Shown here piece by piece: positions 54,321 to 64,000 of a stretch of 64,000 nt of DNA. Within the stretch, counting starts at the first letter, position 1; each line of letters starts with the position of its first letter. A model generated the notes under the pieces. That model had not been told where the DNA came from. It made no database searches and worked only from the letters and a program-made list of their open reading frames with translations. Origin of the DNA: Stigmatella aurantiaca DW4/3-1. Lineage in GTDB: Bacteria > Myxococcota > Myxococcia > Myxococcales > Myxococcaceae. The position numbers were made by a program, and so were the translations under genes. The DNA is taken from the NCBI RefSeq assembly GCF_000165485.1, contig NC_014623.1, positions 10,124,893 to 10,188,892 on the forward strand. Reading direction: 5' to 3'.

Positions 54321-55106
54321 TCAACGCGGCAGCAATTCGATTTGTTCCCGGGCCAGGTCGATGCGTCCGCTGGCGGGGCTGACCGCCACGGGCGGGGCCC
54401 CCGGCGCCCCGCCCCATGGCTCCCACGGCTGCCAGCCGCCGCGGTGCGCCTCGAAGGGCAGGTGCCACAGGGTGCCCTGGGCCCCCCGCGCGAAGACATC
54501 CAACCGGCCCGGCCCCCAGCTGCTGACCGTGGGGCCCGAGGTGAGCACGCCGGCCCGCGCCTGCCATTTGCCCCACCCTCCCTGGGCCTCGTCGAAGGTC
54601 AGCTGCCACAGCCCGTTCTCGATGCCCCGTCCGAAGACGTCGATGCGGCCCTCCCCCCAGCTCACCGCCGCGGGCTCCGAGGTGAGCGCTCCCCCCAGCG
54701 GCTTCCAGGGCAACCACCGGGCGCTCCCCGGCTCGAACGGGCGGTGCCACAGGGTGTTGTTCGTGTGGCGGACGAAGACCTCCATGCGCCCGTCCGGCCA
54801 GCTCACCGCCGCGGGCTCCTGGCCGAAGGTGCCCCCCAGCGACTGGGGGGGCTGGAGCGCTCCCGTCTTCGCATCCAGCACCCGGTGGACCAGCCCGTTC
54901 CGGGCATCGCGGAGGAACACATCCAGGTGGCCTCCCGCCTTCACGCTCACGGCCAGCGCCTGGGGGGAGCGCACGTGGAGCGGCTTCCAGCAGGTGTCCG
55001 GGGACGGGGGCCCCTCCCCCGGGGCCTGCGCGAACGACACCGGCATCACCACGCACAGCGTCAACCCACACACCCCGGCAGCCCAGCTCAGCATCGATTT
55101 CCGCAC
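54321..55106 (-). CDS. Secreted PLL-like beta-propeller lectin-type protein
   Basis: 261 aa from GTG 55106 (CAGGAG upstream). Signal peptide VRKSMLSWAAGVCGLTLC to about residue 30, then repeats of about 48 residues: RMEVFVRHTNNTLWHRPFE, RIDVFGRGIENGLWQLTF, RLDVFARGAQGTLWHLPFE, each with GRxDVFxRGxxxxLW and a SWGxGR strand. This is the PLL/fucose-lectin-like propeller pattern, so binding to sugars on own or foreign envelopes is likely but the ligand is unknown. It is transcribed toward gldA with its own promoter region. Confidence 0.82.
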   Translation of the reverse strand: MRKSMLSWAAGVCGLTLCVVMPVSFAQAPGEGPPSPDTCWKPLHVRSPQALAVSVKAGGHLDVFLRDARNGLVHRVLDAKTGALQPPQSLGGTFGQEPAAVSWPDGRMEVFVRHTNNTLWHRPFEPGSARWLPWKPLGGALTSEPAAVSWGEGRIDVFGRGIENGLWQLTFDEAQGGWGKWQARAGVLTSGPTVSSWGPGRLDVFARGAQGTLWHLPFEAHRGGWQPWEPWGGAPGAPPVAVSPASGRIDLAREQIELLPR

Positions 55107-55212
55107 CGGTGACTCCTGGAGAGGGATGCGCGACGGCCTCAGCGAGGCACGAATCACGCCAACCTCCCTCCAGGAGGCCCGAGGGGGACCCCGTCTGGGT
55201 TTGACTGGGTTT

Positions 55213-55242
55213 GGACGTGTCAGCCGGTGTGCTGACACGTCC
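55213..55242. terminator. Perfect 12-bp inverted repeat after sensor gene
   Basis: GGACGTGTCAGC pairs with GCTGACACGTCC across a 6-nt loop. It begins 12 bp downstream of the pseudo-kinase stop and lies upstream of the PLL-like gene. The arms share GTGTCAGC/GCTGACAC with the repeat at 33088. Terminator or operator; no T-tract. Confidence 0.6.
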
Positions 55243-55254
55243 AGGGGGCGCCGC

Positions 55255-57375
55255 TCAGCGCACCCCCACCGGCCCGCGCGGCAGGTACACCTGGAACAGC
55301 GTGCCCTCCTGCTGCGAGGAGGTCACCTCCATGTGGCCGCCGTGCGCCCGGGTGATCTCCCGGGTGATGAACAGCCCCAGCCCCAGGTGCTCCCGCGTCA
55401 CCTCGTCCCCCACGAGCTGCGCCTGCGGCGGGTAGAAGAACGGGTTGAACATCTCCGAGAGCACCTCGGCGGGGATGGCCTCCCCCTCGCGCCGCACCTC
55501 CAGCACCACCTCCATGCCCTCGGCGAGCAGCCGCACGTCCACCGGCCGGTCCACCGGGCCCGTGCGCAGCGAGTAGCCCAGGAGCGTGCTCAACAGCTCC
55601 ACCAGCCGCTCCCGGTCCCAGATGCCGCGCGCATCCCCGCGCTTCACGTAGCGCACGAGCCGGTCCGGGTGCTCCAGCTCCACCGCCGCCACCACGTCCT
55701 GCGTCACCATGTCCAGGTCCACCCGCGAGCGCAGGAGCACCAGCCCCGCCCCCAGGTACGTGCGCGTGAAGTCCAGCACCTGCCCCAGCGTGCGCCCCAT
55801 CCGCTCCGCGCCCTGGGAGATGCGCGCCGCCGCCTTCGTGTCCACCTCCGCGAGCGTCCCGCGCCGCAGCAGCGTGGAGGCCGCCATGGTGATGGCCGAC
55901 AGCGGGGCCCGCAGCTCGTTGCCGACGATGTCCATCAACCGCTCGCGCACGGCCTCCGCGCGCTTCTGCTCGCGCAAGTCCCGCGTCACCGCCCCCAGCG
56001 CCACGGGCCTGCCCGTCTCCCGGTGCGCCAGCGTGAAGAGGTGGTGGCGCACCGGAATGGCCTCGCCCGTGCGCCGGTGGCGCAGCCGCAGCTCGCCCTC
56101 CCAGCTGCCCCGCTCGCGCACCGCGCGGAACGCCGTGCGCGCCAAGTCCCGGTCCTCCGCCAGGTACGTGTCCATCACCGAGGCGCTCCGGAACGCCTCC
56201 GGCGTCTCGAAGCCCAGCATCTCCTGGCCCGCCGGGTTCAGGTACATGGGCTGCCCGCTCAGCGAGGTGATGCCGATGCACTCCGAGGAGCGCTCCACCA
56301 GCGTCAGGAACTGCTCCTTGCGCTCGGCCCCCACGTCCGACTGCACCACCACCGCCCCCACCACCGTGCCATCCACCCGGACCGGCACCGCCGCGATGCG
56401 CGCCAGCACGTCCCCTCCCGCCTTCGCGTGCCGCACCAGCAGCTCGCGCGTGGTGGCCGTGCCCGCCAGGGCCCTCGCCAGCGGCTCCTCCTCCGGCGCC
56501 ACCTGCTCCTGGGTCTCCGGCGCCCGCGGCTGCAACCGCTCGAGCAGCGACGCGCGGCCGGTGAGCCCCGGGGCGCCGCCCGCCCCCAGCAACTCCTGCG
56601 CCGCCCGGTTGGCCCGGAGTGGGCTGTCCTCGGAGAGCACATAGGCGGAGCCCTCCACCGACTGGAGCACCCCGTCCAGCTCCGCCTCGCGCCGCCGCAG
56701 GAGCGCCCGGAGCGTCTTCAGCTCCGCCTCTCGCTCGATGGCCGCCTTCGCCGCCTCCGCGTGCGCCAGGAGGGACCCGCCGCCCCGCGCCACCAGCGCC
56801 AGCCCCCGCTCCTCGTTCTCCCCGAAGGCCCCCGCCCGCGGGGAGACCACCACGAGCACCGCGATCAGCCGCTCGCCGCACGCCAGCGAGGCCACCACGA
56901 GGGCGCGCGCGCCCAGCTTGCGGCACGCCTCGCGCTCCACGCGCGCATCGGCCTCGGTGTCATCCACGCGCCACACCAGGCGCGCCTTCGAGGCGGCGCC
57001 CCCGGGGTTCAGGTCCAGCCCCAGCTTCTCGCCCACCGTGCGGGCGAGGCTCCCGGTGGCCACGCGGCCCACGAGTTCCCCCTGCTCCAGCGTGGCCAGC
57101 ACCGCCCCCGAGGCCCCGGTCAGCTCCTGCGCCCGGGCGGTGAGCAACTGCTTGAGGTGCTCCACCTCGCCCCGGTCCGCCACGGCGGCCGCTTCGCCTT
57201 GAATCTCTCCCAGCCGCTGCGGCGAGTCGTCCGGGCGCACCGCGGGCGTCCCCGCCGAGGACCGGCGGCCCCCCTCGTCGGGCCGGACCGCGGGCAGCCC
57301 TGTCTGGGACCTGCGGGAAGAGGAGTCATCGGGGCGGACCGTGGGGATCGACGTCTGGGACTTGCGCGAGGACAT
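55255..57375 (-). CDS. Sensor-kinase homologue lacking phospho-acceptor His
   Basis: 706 aa. N-terminal triple repeat (TVRPDDSS, AVRPDEGG, AVRPDDSP), a GAF-like domain (about 60-210), PAS domains (about 230-475; SSECIGITSLSGQPMYLNP, HHLFTLAHRETGRPVALGA), then a HisKA-ATPase layout. The H-box reads DIVGNELRAPLS: Asn486 replaces the acceptor His. The N-box is ELLSTLLGYSL (no Asn), and DxGxG reads REGEA; only the last Gly-rich segment (GLGLGLFITREI) is normal. So it is very probably not a kinase but a sensor-scaffold. It is divergent from the SitA-like remnant. Confidence 0.87.
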   Translation of the reverse strand: MSSRKSQTSIPTVRPDDSSSRRSQTGLPAVRPDEGGRRSSAGTPAVRPDDSPQRLGEIQGEAAAVADRGEVEHLKQLLTARAQELTGASGAVLATLEQGELVGRVATGSLARTVGEKLGLDLNPGGAASKARLVWRVDDTEADARVEREACRKLGARALVVASLACGERLIAVLVVVSPRAGAFGENEERGLALVARGGGSLLAHAEAAKAAIEREAELKTLRALLRRREAELDGVLQSVEGSAYVLSEDSPLRANRAAQELLGAGGAPGLTGRASLLERLQPRAPETQEQVAPEEEPLARALAGTATTRELLVRHAKAGGDVLARIAAVPVRVDGTVVGAVVVQSDVGAERKEQFLTLVERSSECIGITSLSGQPMYLNPAGQEMLGFETPEAFRSASVMDTYLAEDRDLARTAFRAVRERGSWEGELRLRHRRTGEAIPVRHHLFTLAHRETGRPVALGAVTRDLREQKRAEAVRERLMDIVGNELRAPLSAITMAASTLLRRGTLAEVDTKAAARISQGAERMGRTLGQVLDFTRTYLGAGLVLLRSRVDLDMVTQDVVAAVELEHPDRLVRYVKRGDARGIWDRERLVELLSTLLGYSLRTGPVDRPVDVRLLAEGMEVVLEVRREGEAIPAEVLSEMFNPFFYPPQAQLVGDEVTREHLGLGLFITREITRAHGGHMEVTSSQQEGTLFQVYLPRGPVGVR

Positions 57376-57711: not shown

Positions 57712-58160
57712 ATGAGCGTTCCCGGAGTCGCCGTGTTGCTGCTGCTCGCGTCCGGATGCGCGACATCGCGAATCGTGATTTTGGATACAGGGATCGTCTA
57801 CAGGCCTTCCGAGCCGGAGCCCGTATACATATGATTTGAGAAGCTGTTCAAACAAGCCGATCCCTTCATGGAGCACGCCGCCAACAAGGTGCGCATCAAA
57901 GGGCCCCCGGGACCGCACTCACGCGAATACCATGAGACTGTTCTCAAACGGCTCACCGACAAGCTGCTCGGATGCCGAGGTGTTGCGCAATGCAGGGCTG
58001 CGTTGCTTGGCAAGCCACTGCAACTCACCGGGCGCTTGCGAATCCCTCTCTACAGGCCTGGCAGGCCGCTCGACATCGACTTCACCGGAGAGGGACAGAG
58101 GCCTGTTGTGAATGCAGGGCCGAATCCGTCTTCCGGACGCTGGCCTCTGACTCCGTCCAG
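57712..58160 (+). pseudogene. Decayed SitA-like lipoprotein toxin
   Basis: An ATG at 57712 starts a lipoprotein signal (MSVPGVAVLLLLASGCATSR, Cys16), followed by IVILDTGIVYRPSEPEPVYI and a stop. In another frame, downstream, comes EKLFKQADPFMEHAANKVRI, KGPPGPHSREYHETVLKRL, LGCRGVAQCRAALLG. This order, lipobox, SRxVxLDTG and then KGPPGPHxREYHE, is what I recall from SitA-family polymorphic lipoprotein toxins of myxobacteria, which are passed by outer-membrane exchange. The middle is deleted, the toxin tip replaced, and stops are present, so it is dead. Confidence 0.5.
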
Positions 58161-58342
58161 CTCATCACATTCTCAATGTGTCCCGGCTCATCATTGAGGG
58201 TCTGCGAATCGGCCCGGTGAAGGCCGGCAACGCCCGTGTCTTTCACTTGTGGGGCTACAGCTTGCCCATCATCCTCGATGAGGAGGTCAAGGCCGCTCTG
58301 GAACAGAGCGGGTGTGCAGAAGCAACGTTCACAGCAGTCTAA
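58160..58342 (+). pseudogene. C-terminal remnant of imm11-like immunity gene
   Basis: A short frame reads ILNVSRLIIEGLRIGPVKAG, NARVFHLWGYSLPIILDEEV, KAALEQSGCAEATFTAV, then TAA at 58340. This matches the C-terminal block of imm11-family proteins as I know it (VDGLRIDPxxVGxAxVFRLW, then IVSExIKxALExxGxTG). The N-terminal part is gone; the frame runs directly out of the toxin remnant. Toxin and immunity genes were probably adjacent and were fused by a deletion. Confidence 0.6.
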
Positions 58343-58874: not shown

Positions 58875-59756
58875 GAGCGCCTAACAAAAGTCAGGATTAA
58901 GGGCCCGGAAGAGGATCAGGCAGCAGCCCAGAACAAGGAGGCCGAAGTGGACATCATCGCGCCGTTCATCGCGCACGCGCAGACGCCGCTGCCGGTGAAG
59001 CCACGCGTTGGTCCGCTCCACCACCCACCGGTGCTGTCCCAGCCGTTGCTTCGACTCGATGCCGGGCCGTGCGATGCGTGGAGTGATGCCGCGCCGACGC
59101 AGGCCGCGACGGTTCTTGCGCGACGCGTACGCCTTGTCGGCATGCAGCTTGTCGGGCCGGTGACGGGGAGGACCGCGCGGCTGCCTCACCTTGGGCACGG
59201 CCTCCAGCAGAGGGAACAGCTCGCGCGTGTCATGGACGTTGGCTCCCGTCAGACTCTCGGCCAGCGGAAGCCCTCTTCTGTCGACAAGAAGATGATGTTT
59301 GCTGCCCGCCTTCGCTCGGTCCGTCGGGTTCTTGCCCGTGAGGGCCCCCCTTTGGAGGCTCGCACCGTCGAGGAGTCGATCGAGGCACGGCTGAAGTCCA
59401 CTTGGCCGCGCTGGCCCAGCTCGTTGAGCAGCAGTCGCTGGAGCTGCTCGAACACTCCGGCACGTGTCCATTGCTCCAGGCGTCGCCAAGCCGTCATCCC
59501 CGACAGGCCGAACTGCTTGGTCGGCAGCATCTCCCAGGGAATGCCGGTCCTGAGCACGAAGACGATGGCCTCCAAGGCGGCTCGCTCATCAACCCGGGGG
59601 CGGCCGGGCTTCTTCTTCTTCTTGGGAGCTGGAAGCAGCGGAACGACTCGCTCCCACAGCGCATCCGGTACGAGATCGCGAACCATGAAGCCCAAGTGTT
59701 CATGGGCCTGGCTTCCGTCCACCCTCCCTTTCAAACCTTACTTTTGTTAGGCGCTC
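58875..59756 (-). mobile_element. Intact IS5-family (IS427-type) insertion sequence
   Basis: 882 bp with perfect 17-bp inverted ends GAGCGCCTAACAAAAGT (58875-58891 and 59740-59756) and a 3-bp target duplication TTA (58872-58874, 59757-59759). It encodes an IS5-type transposase in two overlapping frames. The TTA right of the element is the complement of the TAA stop codon of the adjacent gene. It inserted recently enough for perfect ends and duplication. Confidence 0.93.
58881..59686 (-). CDS. IS5-family transposase (orfA/orfB frameshift)
   Basis: orfA (start 59686, 145 codons to 59249) has the N-terminal DNA-binding part: MVRDLVPDALWERVVPLLP, KKKKKPGRPRVDERAALEAI, GIPWEMLPTKQFGLSGMTAW, and the first catalytic Asp104 in RASIDSSTVRAS. 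orfB (to 58881) has HHLLVDRRGLPLAESLTGAN, LHADKAYASRKNRRGLRRRG (second Asp), VVERTNAWLHRQRRLRVRDE (Glu). The frames join at AAAGGGGGG (A3G6) near 59345-59353, a slippery run, by a -1 shift, as is usual for IS427-type elements. Both halves are otherwise intact, so it may be active. Confidence 0.9.
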
Positions 59757-60517: not shown

Positions 60518-61816
60518 GTGCGCCACCTCACCAACTGGGCCCGAAACGTCGAGTACTCGGCCGCCCGTCTCCACCGGCCCACCTCGCTCGACGAGGTGAA
60601 GGCCCTCGTCGCCAGCGCCCGGGCCGTCCGGGCCCTCGGCTCAGGCCATTCCTTCAACACCCTCGCCGACACTCCGGGCGAACTCATCTCCCTGGAGGCC
60701 CTCGCCCAGGAGGTGGTGATCGACCCCTCCGCCCGGACCGTCACCGTGAGCGGGGGCATCCGCTATGGCGAGCTTGGCGCCCGGCTCCAGGCGGAGGGCT
60801 TCGCCCTGGCGAACCTCGCCTCGCTGCCGCACATCTCCGTGGCAGGTGCCATTGCCACGGCCACCCATGGCTCGGGCAACACGAACCGGAACCTGGCCGC
60901 GGCGGTCTCCGGGCTGACGCTCGTCACCGCTCGCGGCGAGACGCTCGCGCTGACCCGCTCCAGCCCGGACTTCGCTGGAGCCGTCGTCGGCCTGGGCGCC
61001 CTGGGCCTCGTCACCTCCGTCACCCTCGACATCGAGCCGTCATTCGATGTCGCGGTCACCGTCTATGAGCACCTCGCCTGGGACACCCTGCTCCACCACT
61101 TCGATGCGCTCATGCGCGCCGCCTACAGCGTGAGCCTTTTCACGAACTGGGCGCGCGACACGGTGGATCAAGTCTGGCTCAAGCAGCGCGTCGATGGCAC
61201 CGCGGGAGCACTGCCCCTGCCAGGCCAAGATTTCCACGGCGCCACGCCCGCCCCGGAGCGGCGGCATCCCCTGCCGGGAGCCCCGGCCGAGGCCTGCTCC
61301 GAGCAACTCGGGATCGCCGGGTGCTGGGCCGACCGGCTGCCCCACTTCCGCCTTGGCTTCACCCCCAGCCGGGGCGAGGAGCTCCAATCGGAGTACATCC
61401 TGCCCCGCGCCCACGCGGCCGCGGCCATCGAGGCCCTGCGCGCCCTGGCCGGCCGCATCGCGCCCCTCCTCCAGATCGCGGAGATCCGGACGATGGCCGC
61501 CGATGACCTCTGGCTCAGCATGAACTACCGCGCGGACAGCGTCGGCTTCCACTTCACCTGGAAACCCTTGCAGCCCGAGGTGGAGGCCCTGCTCCCTGTC
61601 ATCGAGGAGGCGCTCGCGCCCTTCCGGGCGCGGCCCCACTGGGGCAAGCTGTTCCACGCCCGCGCCAGCCACCTGGCGACCCTCTATGAGAAGTGGCCGG
61701 CCTTCATCGCCCTGGCCGAGCGGCTCGATCCGGAACACAAGTTCCGCAATGACTTTCTCGCCCGCCACGTCTTCGGAGCAGGAACACAGGAGCGACGCAG
61801 CGAGATGATCAGATGA
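60518..61816 (+). CDS. aldO: Alditol oxidase-like FAD-dependent oxidoreductase
   Basis: 432 aa from GTG 60518, chosen because VRHLTNWARNVEYSAARLH matches the N-termini of Streptomyces AldO-type alditol/xylitol oxidases. The FAD-binding motif RALGSGHSFN has His44, the predicted covalent FAD site. ISVAGAIATATHGSG and GALGLVTSVTLDIEP are family blocks, and MTAADDLWLSMNYR-like residues belong to the C-terminal ALO domain. It oxidises sugar alcohols or aldonolactones with oxygen, giving peroxide. No partner genes; its 3' end overlaps the RES gene by 8 bp, convergently. Confidence 0.87.
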   Translation: MRHLTNWARNVEYSAARLHRPTSLDEVKALVASARAVRALGSGHSFNTLADTPGELISLEALAQEVVIDPSARTVTVSGGIRYGELGARLQAEGFALANLASLPHISVAGAIATATHGSGNTNRNLAAAVSGLTLVTARGETLALTRSSPDFAGAVVGLGALGLVTSVTLDIEPSFDVAVTVYEHLAWDTLLHHFDALMRAAYSVSLFTNWARDTVDQVWLKQRVDGTAGALPLPGQDFHGATPAPERRHPLPGAPAEACSEQLGIAGCWADRLPHFRLGFTPSRGEELQSEYILPRAHAAAAIEALRALAGRIAPLLQIAEIRTMAADDLWLSMNYRADSVGFHFTWKPLQPEVEALLPVIEEALAPFRARPHWGKLFHARASHLATLYEKWPAFIALAERLDPEHKFRNDFLARHVFGAGTQERRSEMIR

Positions 61817-62417
61817 GTGCGAATTCGTAGAGATCGAGCGTTTTGCCAAGCTCCGCGGCAAAACCATGATCCATCAGGGACGCGGTGATGAGCTGCGTCG
61901 CGAACCCCCGTTGAGCACGTTCGAAGACGACGGCACAAAGCTGGCTCGGATCATGACGCGATCGATAAGACAGCCCGTCAGGGCCCTCTGGGTGTTCATG
62001 GAATGCGCGTGACCATTCTTGTGGCAACGCATAGTCCGCCACCGCGAAGATGCTGGCATCCATGCGAAGGCGCCCCAGCCCTTCATTCGCCAAGTCCACC
62101 AGCTTGAGCGGCTGTGAGCGCGTGAGCTTTGTCAGGCTACGGTCCTCCAGGTCTTTTCGGCTCACTCGCCCACGGCTCTGGGGGACACGCCCGAATGTCT
62201 CCAAAAAAGCGCAGCCAAAGCTTTCGCCTGAATACATGACGCCATACGCCTGCTTTGGATCATCGAAGCGGTAGGCCTTGGCTTTTCCGAAGTAGAGGGC
62301 TCCCAACGCGGCGCGGTGAATGCGGTACCAGGGGCCACCCGCCTGAACGAGCGGAAGGGGCCTTTTCGCCAAATCGACCGGGGGTGCTTGCAGCGTATAG
62401 GGGTTGCTAGAGACCAC
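61809..62417 (-). CDS. RES-domain toxin
   Basis: 202 aa from GTG 62417 (GGGGAG upstream), overlapping the antitoxin end by 11 bp. RES-domain features: WYRIHRAALGALYFGKAK, RFDDPKQAYGVMYSGESF, CAFLETFGR, SLTKLTRSQPLKLVDLA, then YRSRHDPSQLCAVVFER. RES toxins break down NAD+ in starving or antitoxin-free cells. It is downstream of the antitoxin, the usual order for this pair. Substrate details are taken from the family, not shown here. Confidence 0.87.
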   Translation of the reverse strand: MVSSNPYTLQAPPVDLAKRPLPLVQAGGPWYRIHRAALGALYFGKAKAYRFDDPKQAYGVMYSGESFGCAFLETFGRVPQSRGRVSRKDLEDRSLTKLTRSQPLKLVDLANEGLGRLRMDASIFAVADYALPQEWSRAFHEHPEGPDGLSYRSRHDPSQLCAVVFERAQRGFATQLITASLMDHGFAAELGKTLDLYEFALI

Positions 62418-63021
62418 CGTGCTCCCCGTAGGTCTTTGCGATTCCCACGGCCTTGTCGACTTCTCCCGCGCGAAGGGCATCGAGCGGATGCTTGTGTTCG
62501 GGCAGGCGAGGATCCTTGGACAAGAAGAAGTTCAGCTTGCTCCACGTGTCATGATCCCGGAGCGCGGCAAGAACCTCTTCCAACCCCTTCAGGGGTTGAC
62601 CCTCCTCAGAAACCTGCCAAATCGGGTATGCGTAGCCGTGCTTCCCTCGCTCGACTCCCAGCAACTTCCCGGCTTTTCGACGGTCATCCACGGTCTGGCG
62701 GGTGACCTCCAACAACTTGGCCAGGTCGCTTGCCCCCACCGAGCCCCCTTCCGCAGAGAGCAGTTCCTGCCGGGCACGCAAGCCACGAACCCGCGCGAGT
62801 GCGAGCGGGTCCACGGTCTGGATCATCTTGAGCACTTCTGGCTGCTCAAGCACGCGCAGAACAATCTCGAACGATGACTCAAGTTCCTTGAGAAGAGACT
62901 CAAGAGAGGATTGGTCCAACTCAAGCACGAGGCTTCGGGACGCTTCTTGGACCGACGTCATGACCAAGGCACGCGCTGGGTCCGCCAGCATCCTCGAACC
63001 CGTTTCATGTCGATCCGACAT
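62407..63021 (-). CDS. Xre/MbcA/ParS-type antitoxin
   Basis: 204 aa with AGGAGG at the right distance from the ATG. N-terminal helical half (SLESLLKELESSFEIVLRVL), a helix-turn-helix (ASDLAKLLEVTRQTVDDRRK), and a C-terminal DUF2384-like toxin-binding end (SKLNFFLSKDPRLPEHKHPL, DALRAGEVDKAVGIAKTYGE). It should neutralise the RES toxin and repress its own promoter. It is longer than typical family members because of the N-terminal helical section. Confidence 0.85.
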   Translation of the reverse strand: MSDRHETGSRMLADPARALVMTSVQEASRSLVLELDQSSLESLLKELESSFEIVLRVLEQPEVLKMIQTVDPLALARVRGLRARQELLSAEGGSVGASDLAKLLEVTRQTVDDRRKAGKLLGVERGKHGYAYPIWQVSEEGQPLKGLEEVLAALRDHDTWSKLNFFLSKDPRLPEHKHPLDALRAGEVDKAVGIAKTYGEHGGL

Positions 63022-63273: not shown

Positions 63274-64000
63274 ATGCCAAGCCCTGCTGACCGTCCGGAT
63301 CCAGCGCGTGTCACGCCCCAGCCGTGGAAGTCTCTCGCCTGGCAGGCGCTCGAAGCCGCCCGGCGCCGCACCCTGAACATGCTCGCCGGCCTCCCCGAGG
63401 CCGAGCTGCTCCGTCAGCACTCGCCCCTCATGTCCCCGCTCGTCTGGGATGTGGCCCACGTCGCCAACTATGAGGAGCAGTGGCTCCTGCGCGCCCTCGG
63501 CGGCCCCGCCCTCACCGACGCCGCCTTCGACGCCGTCTACGACGCCTTCCGCCACCCCCGCCGCACCCGCTCGGCCCTGCCCATCCTCTCCCCCGAGGCC
63601 GCCTTCGCCTATGCCGCCCGCGTCCGCGACGCCGTGCGCGAGCACCTGGAGCACCTCCCCGAAGACGCTCCCCTGCCCCTGCTCCAGGGCGGCTTCGTCT
63701 TCGGCATGGTCGCCCAGCACGAGCAGCAACACGCCGAGACCCTCGCCGCCACCCTCCAGTTGATGACCACCTGGGAGTATCGCCCCGCCGCTCGCCCCCT
63801 CCCTCGCCCCGGCGCCGTCCCCCTCCACGAGGTGTTCATCCCCGGTGGCCCCTCCCTCCAGGGCAGCCACGCCCCTTGGGCCTACGACAACGAGCGCCCC
63901 CCCCACCCCGTTCACCTGGCCCCTTTCTTCCTCGATGCCCACCCCACCACCCAGGGCGACTACCTCGTCTTCGTCGAGTCCGGCGGCTACGAAGATCCTC
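63274..64000 (+). CDS. egtB: Ergothioneine biosynthesis protein EgtB (partial)
   Basis: First 242 codons, running off the window. The DinB-like N-terminal domain has three predicted iron ligands, His62 (WDVAHVANYEEQW), His149 and His153 (VAQHEQQHAETL). It leads into the start of the FGE-sulfatase-like domain (PLHEVFIPGGPSLQGSHAPW, FFLDAHPTTQGDYLVFVESG). EgtB couples oxygen to hercynine and a thiol, giving the sulfoxide. ATG at 63274 (MPSPADRPDPARV). Any other ergothioneine genes would lie beyond the window. Confidence 0.92.
   Translation, partial: MPSPADRPDPARVTPQPWKSLAWQALEAARRRTLNMLAGLPEAELLRQHSPLMSPLVWDVAHVANYEEQWLLRALGGPALTDAAFDAVYDAFRHPRRTRSALPILSPEAAFAYAARVRDAVREHLEHLPEDAPLPLLQGGFVFGMVAQHEQQHAETLAATLQLMTTWEYRPAARPLPRPGAVPLHEVFIPGGPSLQGSHAPWAYDNERPPHPVHLAPFFLDAHPTTQGDYLVFVESGGYEDP

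Follow-up and report, generated by a model that had tools for sequence, protein, structure and literature searches.

The window, meaning the whole 64,000-nucleotide stretch of DNA that was analysed, holds a gene for a histidine pseudokinase: the protein has a kinase fold, lacks the catalytic residues, and shares this state with its orthologues (Table 1). The phosphoacceptor His, the N-box Asn and the G1 Asp/Asn are all missing and, judged by these residues, the protein is not an active histidine kinase. It is probably an orphan pseudokinase, descended from a histidine kinase, that signals by binding a partner through its DHp domain, the partner most likely being an active kinase of the HNxGxP subfamily. 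The conserved losses, together with the retained sensory and DHp parts, are what point to action by binding.

Table 1. Features of the pseudokinase gene and its neighbours, in window coordinates.
Feature	Position	Strand	Basis
Pseudokinase gene, 706 aa	55255..57375	minus	ORF; ATG start backed by N-terminus common to close orthologues
N-terminal tail, repeated SQT.LP.VR segments (aa 1-57)	57205..57375	minus	Translation, orthologue alignment
GAF domain (aa 76-201)	56773..57150	minus	Pfam
Weak, sub-threshold PAS match (aa 253-290)	56506..56619	minus	Pfam
PAS domain (aa 361-472)	55960..56295	minus	Pfam
HisKA/DHp domain (aa 479-538)	55762..55941	minus	Pfam
HATPase_c/CA domain (aa 587-700)	55276..55617	minus	Pfam
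Codon of Asn486 (AAC), phosphoacceptor His position	55918..55920	minus	Alignment
Codon of Tyr601, N-box Asn position	55573..55575	minus	Alignment
Codon of Arg629, G1 Asp/Asn position	55489..55491	minus	Alignment
305-aa ORF, no Pfam family	54321..55238	minus	Begins 16 bases after pseudokinase stop
egtB start, divergent neighbour, runs off window	63274..64000	plus	NCBIfam

Domain layout and catalytic motifs

The HisKA and HATPase_c domains scored 31.0 and 58.4 bits against Pfam cut-offs of 26.9 and 26.4, respectively, giving the protein the fold of a sensor histidine kinase. No stop interrupts the reading frame of the pseudokinase gene or of its five orthologues, which bears out the sequence-only reading that the gene is intact; the coordinates and residue numbering of that reading were also correct, with the gene on the minus strand. 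It had further called the sensory domains complete. This holds for the GAF domain and the second PAS domain, whose Pfam matches are near full length, but not for the first PAS match, which is sub-threshold. No membrane segment was apparent by eye in the 706-residue protein, and it is apparently soluble. Single-sequence structure models were unusable, with a mean pLDDT of 40.7 for the whole protein and 44.2 for the core. A search of the protein's own genome at E ≤ 0.01 found no second copy of the N-terminal tail. In the orthologue from G020, the tail is lengthened by an in-frame 48-base tandem repeat of 5.9 copies (L038:8783-9068).

The H-box reads VGNELRAPL, with Asn486 at the phosphoacceptor His position; the N-box reads LLSTLLGYSLR, with Tyr601 at the Asn position, and the G1 motif reads VRREGEAIP, with Arg629 at the Asp/Asn position. 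As controls from the same genome we used the 80 best-scoring of 131 other matches, minus one not covering the kinase core. Among these best-scoring controls, the acceptor His is present in 78/80 and the N-box Asn in 80/80, and the G1 residue is Asp in 58/80 and Asn in 22/80. The two controls without the His, L073 (Asn) and L117 (Gln), both retain the N-box Asn and the G1 Asp, and all three losses combined occur in the pseudokinase alone among the 81 sequences compared (the best-scoring own-genome stretches plus itself). The alignment thus confirmed that the acceptor His is replaced by Asn486 and that the N-box Asn is lost, as had been proposed. A third proposal, that the Asp of DxGxG had become Arg, has to be amended: Arg629 is there, but the residue lost was probably Asn, because 26/26 non-orthologous near relatives from several genomes, all with the His and the N-box Asn, have Asn at this position. 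The change would then be Asn to Arg rather than Asp to Arg.

The position four residues after the acceptor (His+4) is T or N in 73/80 of the controls and Ala in the pseudokinase, making phosphatase activity doubtful too; in the six orthologous sequences, it is A in four, E in one and T in one (G020). The acidic residue at His+1 is retained in 6/6. So are the G2 glycines (GLGLF), and the nucleotide site is therefore not wholly erased, so that some nucleotide binding may be possible. The sequences from G002 and G020 have a Leu-to-Glu change beside these glycines, which are themselves retained, and a 5-residue gap ahead of G2.

Conservation of the DHp domain and possible partners

Full-length relatives (E ≤ 1e-90) were found in 6/96 genomes of the family: G000 (its own), G001, G002, G004, G005 and G020. 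No further orthologues came from 145 genomes of the order searched at E ≤ 1e-62; the other 18 matches listed in that search begin at residue 257 or later, with 37–42% identity. For G002 and G020, the start codons were chosen from the shared N-terminus. The 6/6 sequences, which diverge to about 60% identity at their deepest split, share Asn486, Arg629 and the loss of the N-box Asn. Residue 601 is Tyr in four and His in two; four sequences encode Asn486 by AAC and the other two by AAT. When the orthologues were checked for conservation, His486 was found in 0/5 and Asn in all of them.

Between G000 and G002/G020, the pseudokinase is 81/78% identical in the DHp domain, 80/83% in the linker and 64/60% in the CA domain. 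The corresponding DHp/linker/CA values in canonical kinases, with orthology judged from similarity and length only, were 78/61/72% for control family A (G000 vs G002), 90/78/80% (G002) and 93/85/79% (G020), each vs G000, for family B, and 72/56/70% for an L002-type control (G000 vs G020). The pseudokinase DHp lies within the control range (72–93%), the linker above three of the four, and the CA domain below all four (70–80%). Control family F was set aside after its values had been seen, as its G000–G020 pair (51/39/45%) looked non-orthologous; its G000–G001 pair gave 89/83/93%. The DHp is mostly better conserved than the CA domain in canonical families too, so the pattern alone is no proof of a role for the DHp. 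Three losses in 6/6 sequences, with a DHp and linker conserved to much the same degree as those of canonical kinases from the same genomes, support the earlier reading of a signalling pseudokinase.

Phosphate chemistry is unlikely in a protein that lacks the acceptor and the N-box and G1 residues, as well as the phosphatase residues in five of six sequences; what remains is sensing and binding. Signals received by the GAF and PAS domains would alter the coiled coil and the DHp, which would hand the signal on by binding another signalling protein. The partner would most likely be an active histidine kinase of the HNxGxP subfamily, joined in a mixed dimer or a co-assembly, and the association may raise or lower its activity. 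We tentatively consider a fuller version, in which the acceptor, nucleotide-site and phosphatase signatures were gone from the fold before the lineage split; from then on it would have acted, with no need for ATP, as a structural subunit that is driven by GAF and PAS and tunes an active kinase through mixed dimers.

The nearest sequence relatives are canonical HNxGxP kinases of the same genome (L002, L003 and L004; 39–45% over the kinase region), which, unlike the pseudokinase, retain the His and the N-box Asn. The best match of known structure is the kinase core of a bacteriophytochrome (PDB 9rcc, 9eut; 83 bits, residues 470–686), which has a G1 Asn but differs in retaining the acceptor His; Pfam reported no phytochrome domain in the pseudokinase. 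A ChrS variant of Corynebacterium glutamicum likewise is an inactive histidine kinase that acts with an active one, HrrS, and heterodimers of the two were seen in two-hybrid assays (PMC9491836). That variant arose by a frameshift in laboratory evolution, whereas the losses described here are natural, old and due to substitutions.

The dead DHp might instead dock a response regulator, possibly phosphorylated, and relay or titrate it, as a sensor run in reverse. The model would be Caulobacter DivL, a controller of CckA that likewise has PAS domains and a kinase fold in which another residue stands for the acceptor His. DivL functions without kinase or phosphatase activity and, with Tyr in place of His, binds DivK~P via the usual docking face (PMC4211667); the well-conserved DHp of the pseudokinase would suit such a role. 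A Y550H DivL is reported to gain ATP-dependent phosphorylation with DivK~P, so its CA domain is still able, whereas the pseudokinase is without the N-box and G1 residues too. DivL shows no special kinship to the pseudokinase, ranking 15th of 28 solved sequences, at 29.9 bits. Among the 150 receiver domains listed, with scores for 150 of 255 candidates, none is nearby, the nearest being about 26 kb away. Six alpha-1 positions, known from the HK853 literature as specificity positions, also bear on this point. They are invariant at 3/6 in the pseudokinase vs 5/6 in families A, B, C, E and the L002 type, although the numbers are small, only A, B and the L002 type span the deep split, and family D was left out. 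This hints that regulator docking may be relaxed in the pseudokinase. Because the alpha-1 positions vary more, we prefer binding to an active kinase and consider DivL-like sensing of a regulator unlikely.

Pseudo-histidine kinases are already known; the present one is more degenerate than DivL and is maintained in one myxobacteria-like lineage. About 1% of sequenced kinases are substituted at the His, Asn being among the replacements, and few two-component pseudokinases had been studied as of 2014, according to a commentary (PMC5361649). No published work on this gene was recognised in the literature searched. A protein that has neither the acceptor nor the N-box and G1 residues, and that two sister genomes do without, would offer a clean test of kinase-fold signalling without phosphate chemistry.

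Selection and history of the locus

Whole-gene dN/dS was 0.17 (G000–G005), 0.15 (G001–G004), 0.26 (G000–G001), 0.50 (G002–G020) and 0.56 (G000–G002); single domains reached maxima of 0.81 (CA, G000–G001) and 0.99 (coil, G002–G020). G+C makes up 97% of the gene's third codon positions, which probably lowers dS. The six orthologues formed one clade (100/100) among 29 kinase cores, with a stem of 0.81 changes per column, in a tree that left out four canonical rows (L002, L028–L030) missed by the motif pattern; the link of the clade to the nearest canonical row was weak (85/43).

In G001, G002, G004 and G020, no more than about 4 kb separates the pseudokinase gene from egtB, and egtD and parAB-like genes belong to the same region. 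The distance is about 5.9 kb in G000, where a transposase gene lies in between, and about 81 kb in G005. Two genomes of the same genus, G003 and G006, have no pseudokinase gene at the egtB site and no kinase between the flanks: only 175 and 264 bases, respectively, separate egtB from the gene that in G002 and G020 follows the pseudokinase cassette. The pseudokinase gene was at the egtB site in 0/10 further family genomes read. A kinase beside egtB in G017 was rejected as an orthologue, having the His and a different N-terminus. A tree of EgtB, EgtD and ParB, weakly supported in its inner branches, places G003 and G006 together with G002 and G020. One gain with later losses is the simplest account, and acquisition of the gene by transfer is possible.

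Absence from the two sister genomes means that the gene is dispensable and, together with the somewhat lower CA conservation and the gap before G2 in G002 and G020, would suit a relic, eroding since kinase function was lost. We regard this as very improbable, as six frames have stayed open across the roughly 60% identity split with whole-gene dN/dS of 0.15–0.56, the DHp and linker are conserved like those of active kinases, and Asn486 has been kept despite a synonymous codon difference. Residual or unusual catalysis through the altered residues, whether the protein were to bind nucleotide, act as a phosphatase or phosphorylate a partner, could draw on the G2 glycines, the His+1 acid and the Thr at His+4 in G020, but is hard to credit with the N-box Asn and the G1 Asp/Asn lost in 6/6.

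Neighbouring genes and other acceptor-less kinases

The 305-residue ORF downstream is possibly co-transcribed with the pseudokinase gene. It is present in G005, G001 and G004 and replaced in G002 and G020, and it changes faster, with 59–67% identity between genomes where the pseudokinase shows 90–95%; it is not a conserved partner. Pfam found no receiver or kinase domain in the neighbours scanned. EgtB and EgtD passed the NCBIfam cut-offs; an F420-reductase-like name did not. Other neighbours are presumably parA, parB, bactofilin, lipoprotein, lectin, LysR and gld genes.

A DDE transposase lies in two overlapping frames at 58881-59734 (minus), the scan covering the first of them, and a RES-domain gene overlaps a 204-residue gene at 61809-63021 (minus), possibly as a toxin–antitoxin pair. 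In G001, egtB and the pseudokinase gene are separated by genes for an AHH nuclease and an Imm11 immunity protein (L035:7316-8753), where the window shows no more than a weak AHH fragment at 57868-58197; the interval looks like a turnover spot for nuclease/immunity pairs. The gene after the pseudokinase in G002 (L037:11039-13573) has a weak, sub-cut-off pre-toxin TG match, and similar genes also follow the pseudokinase in G020.

The genome of the pseudokinase holds other kinases without the acceptor. L153:552-2021 (G000:C1:965554-967020, minus) has Asn at the acceptor position, with the N-box Asn and G1 Asp intact. Of 12 loci read, out of 61 genomes matching, those of G000 and G005 have Asn and the remaining ten His, so that the acceptor loss in L153 looks recent and that in the pseudokinase older. 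L117 (G000:C1:5836062-5836700), with Gln at the acceptor position, contains one TGA and may be a broken gene.
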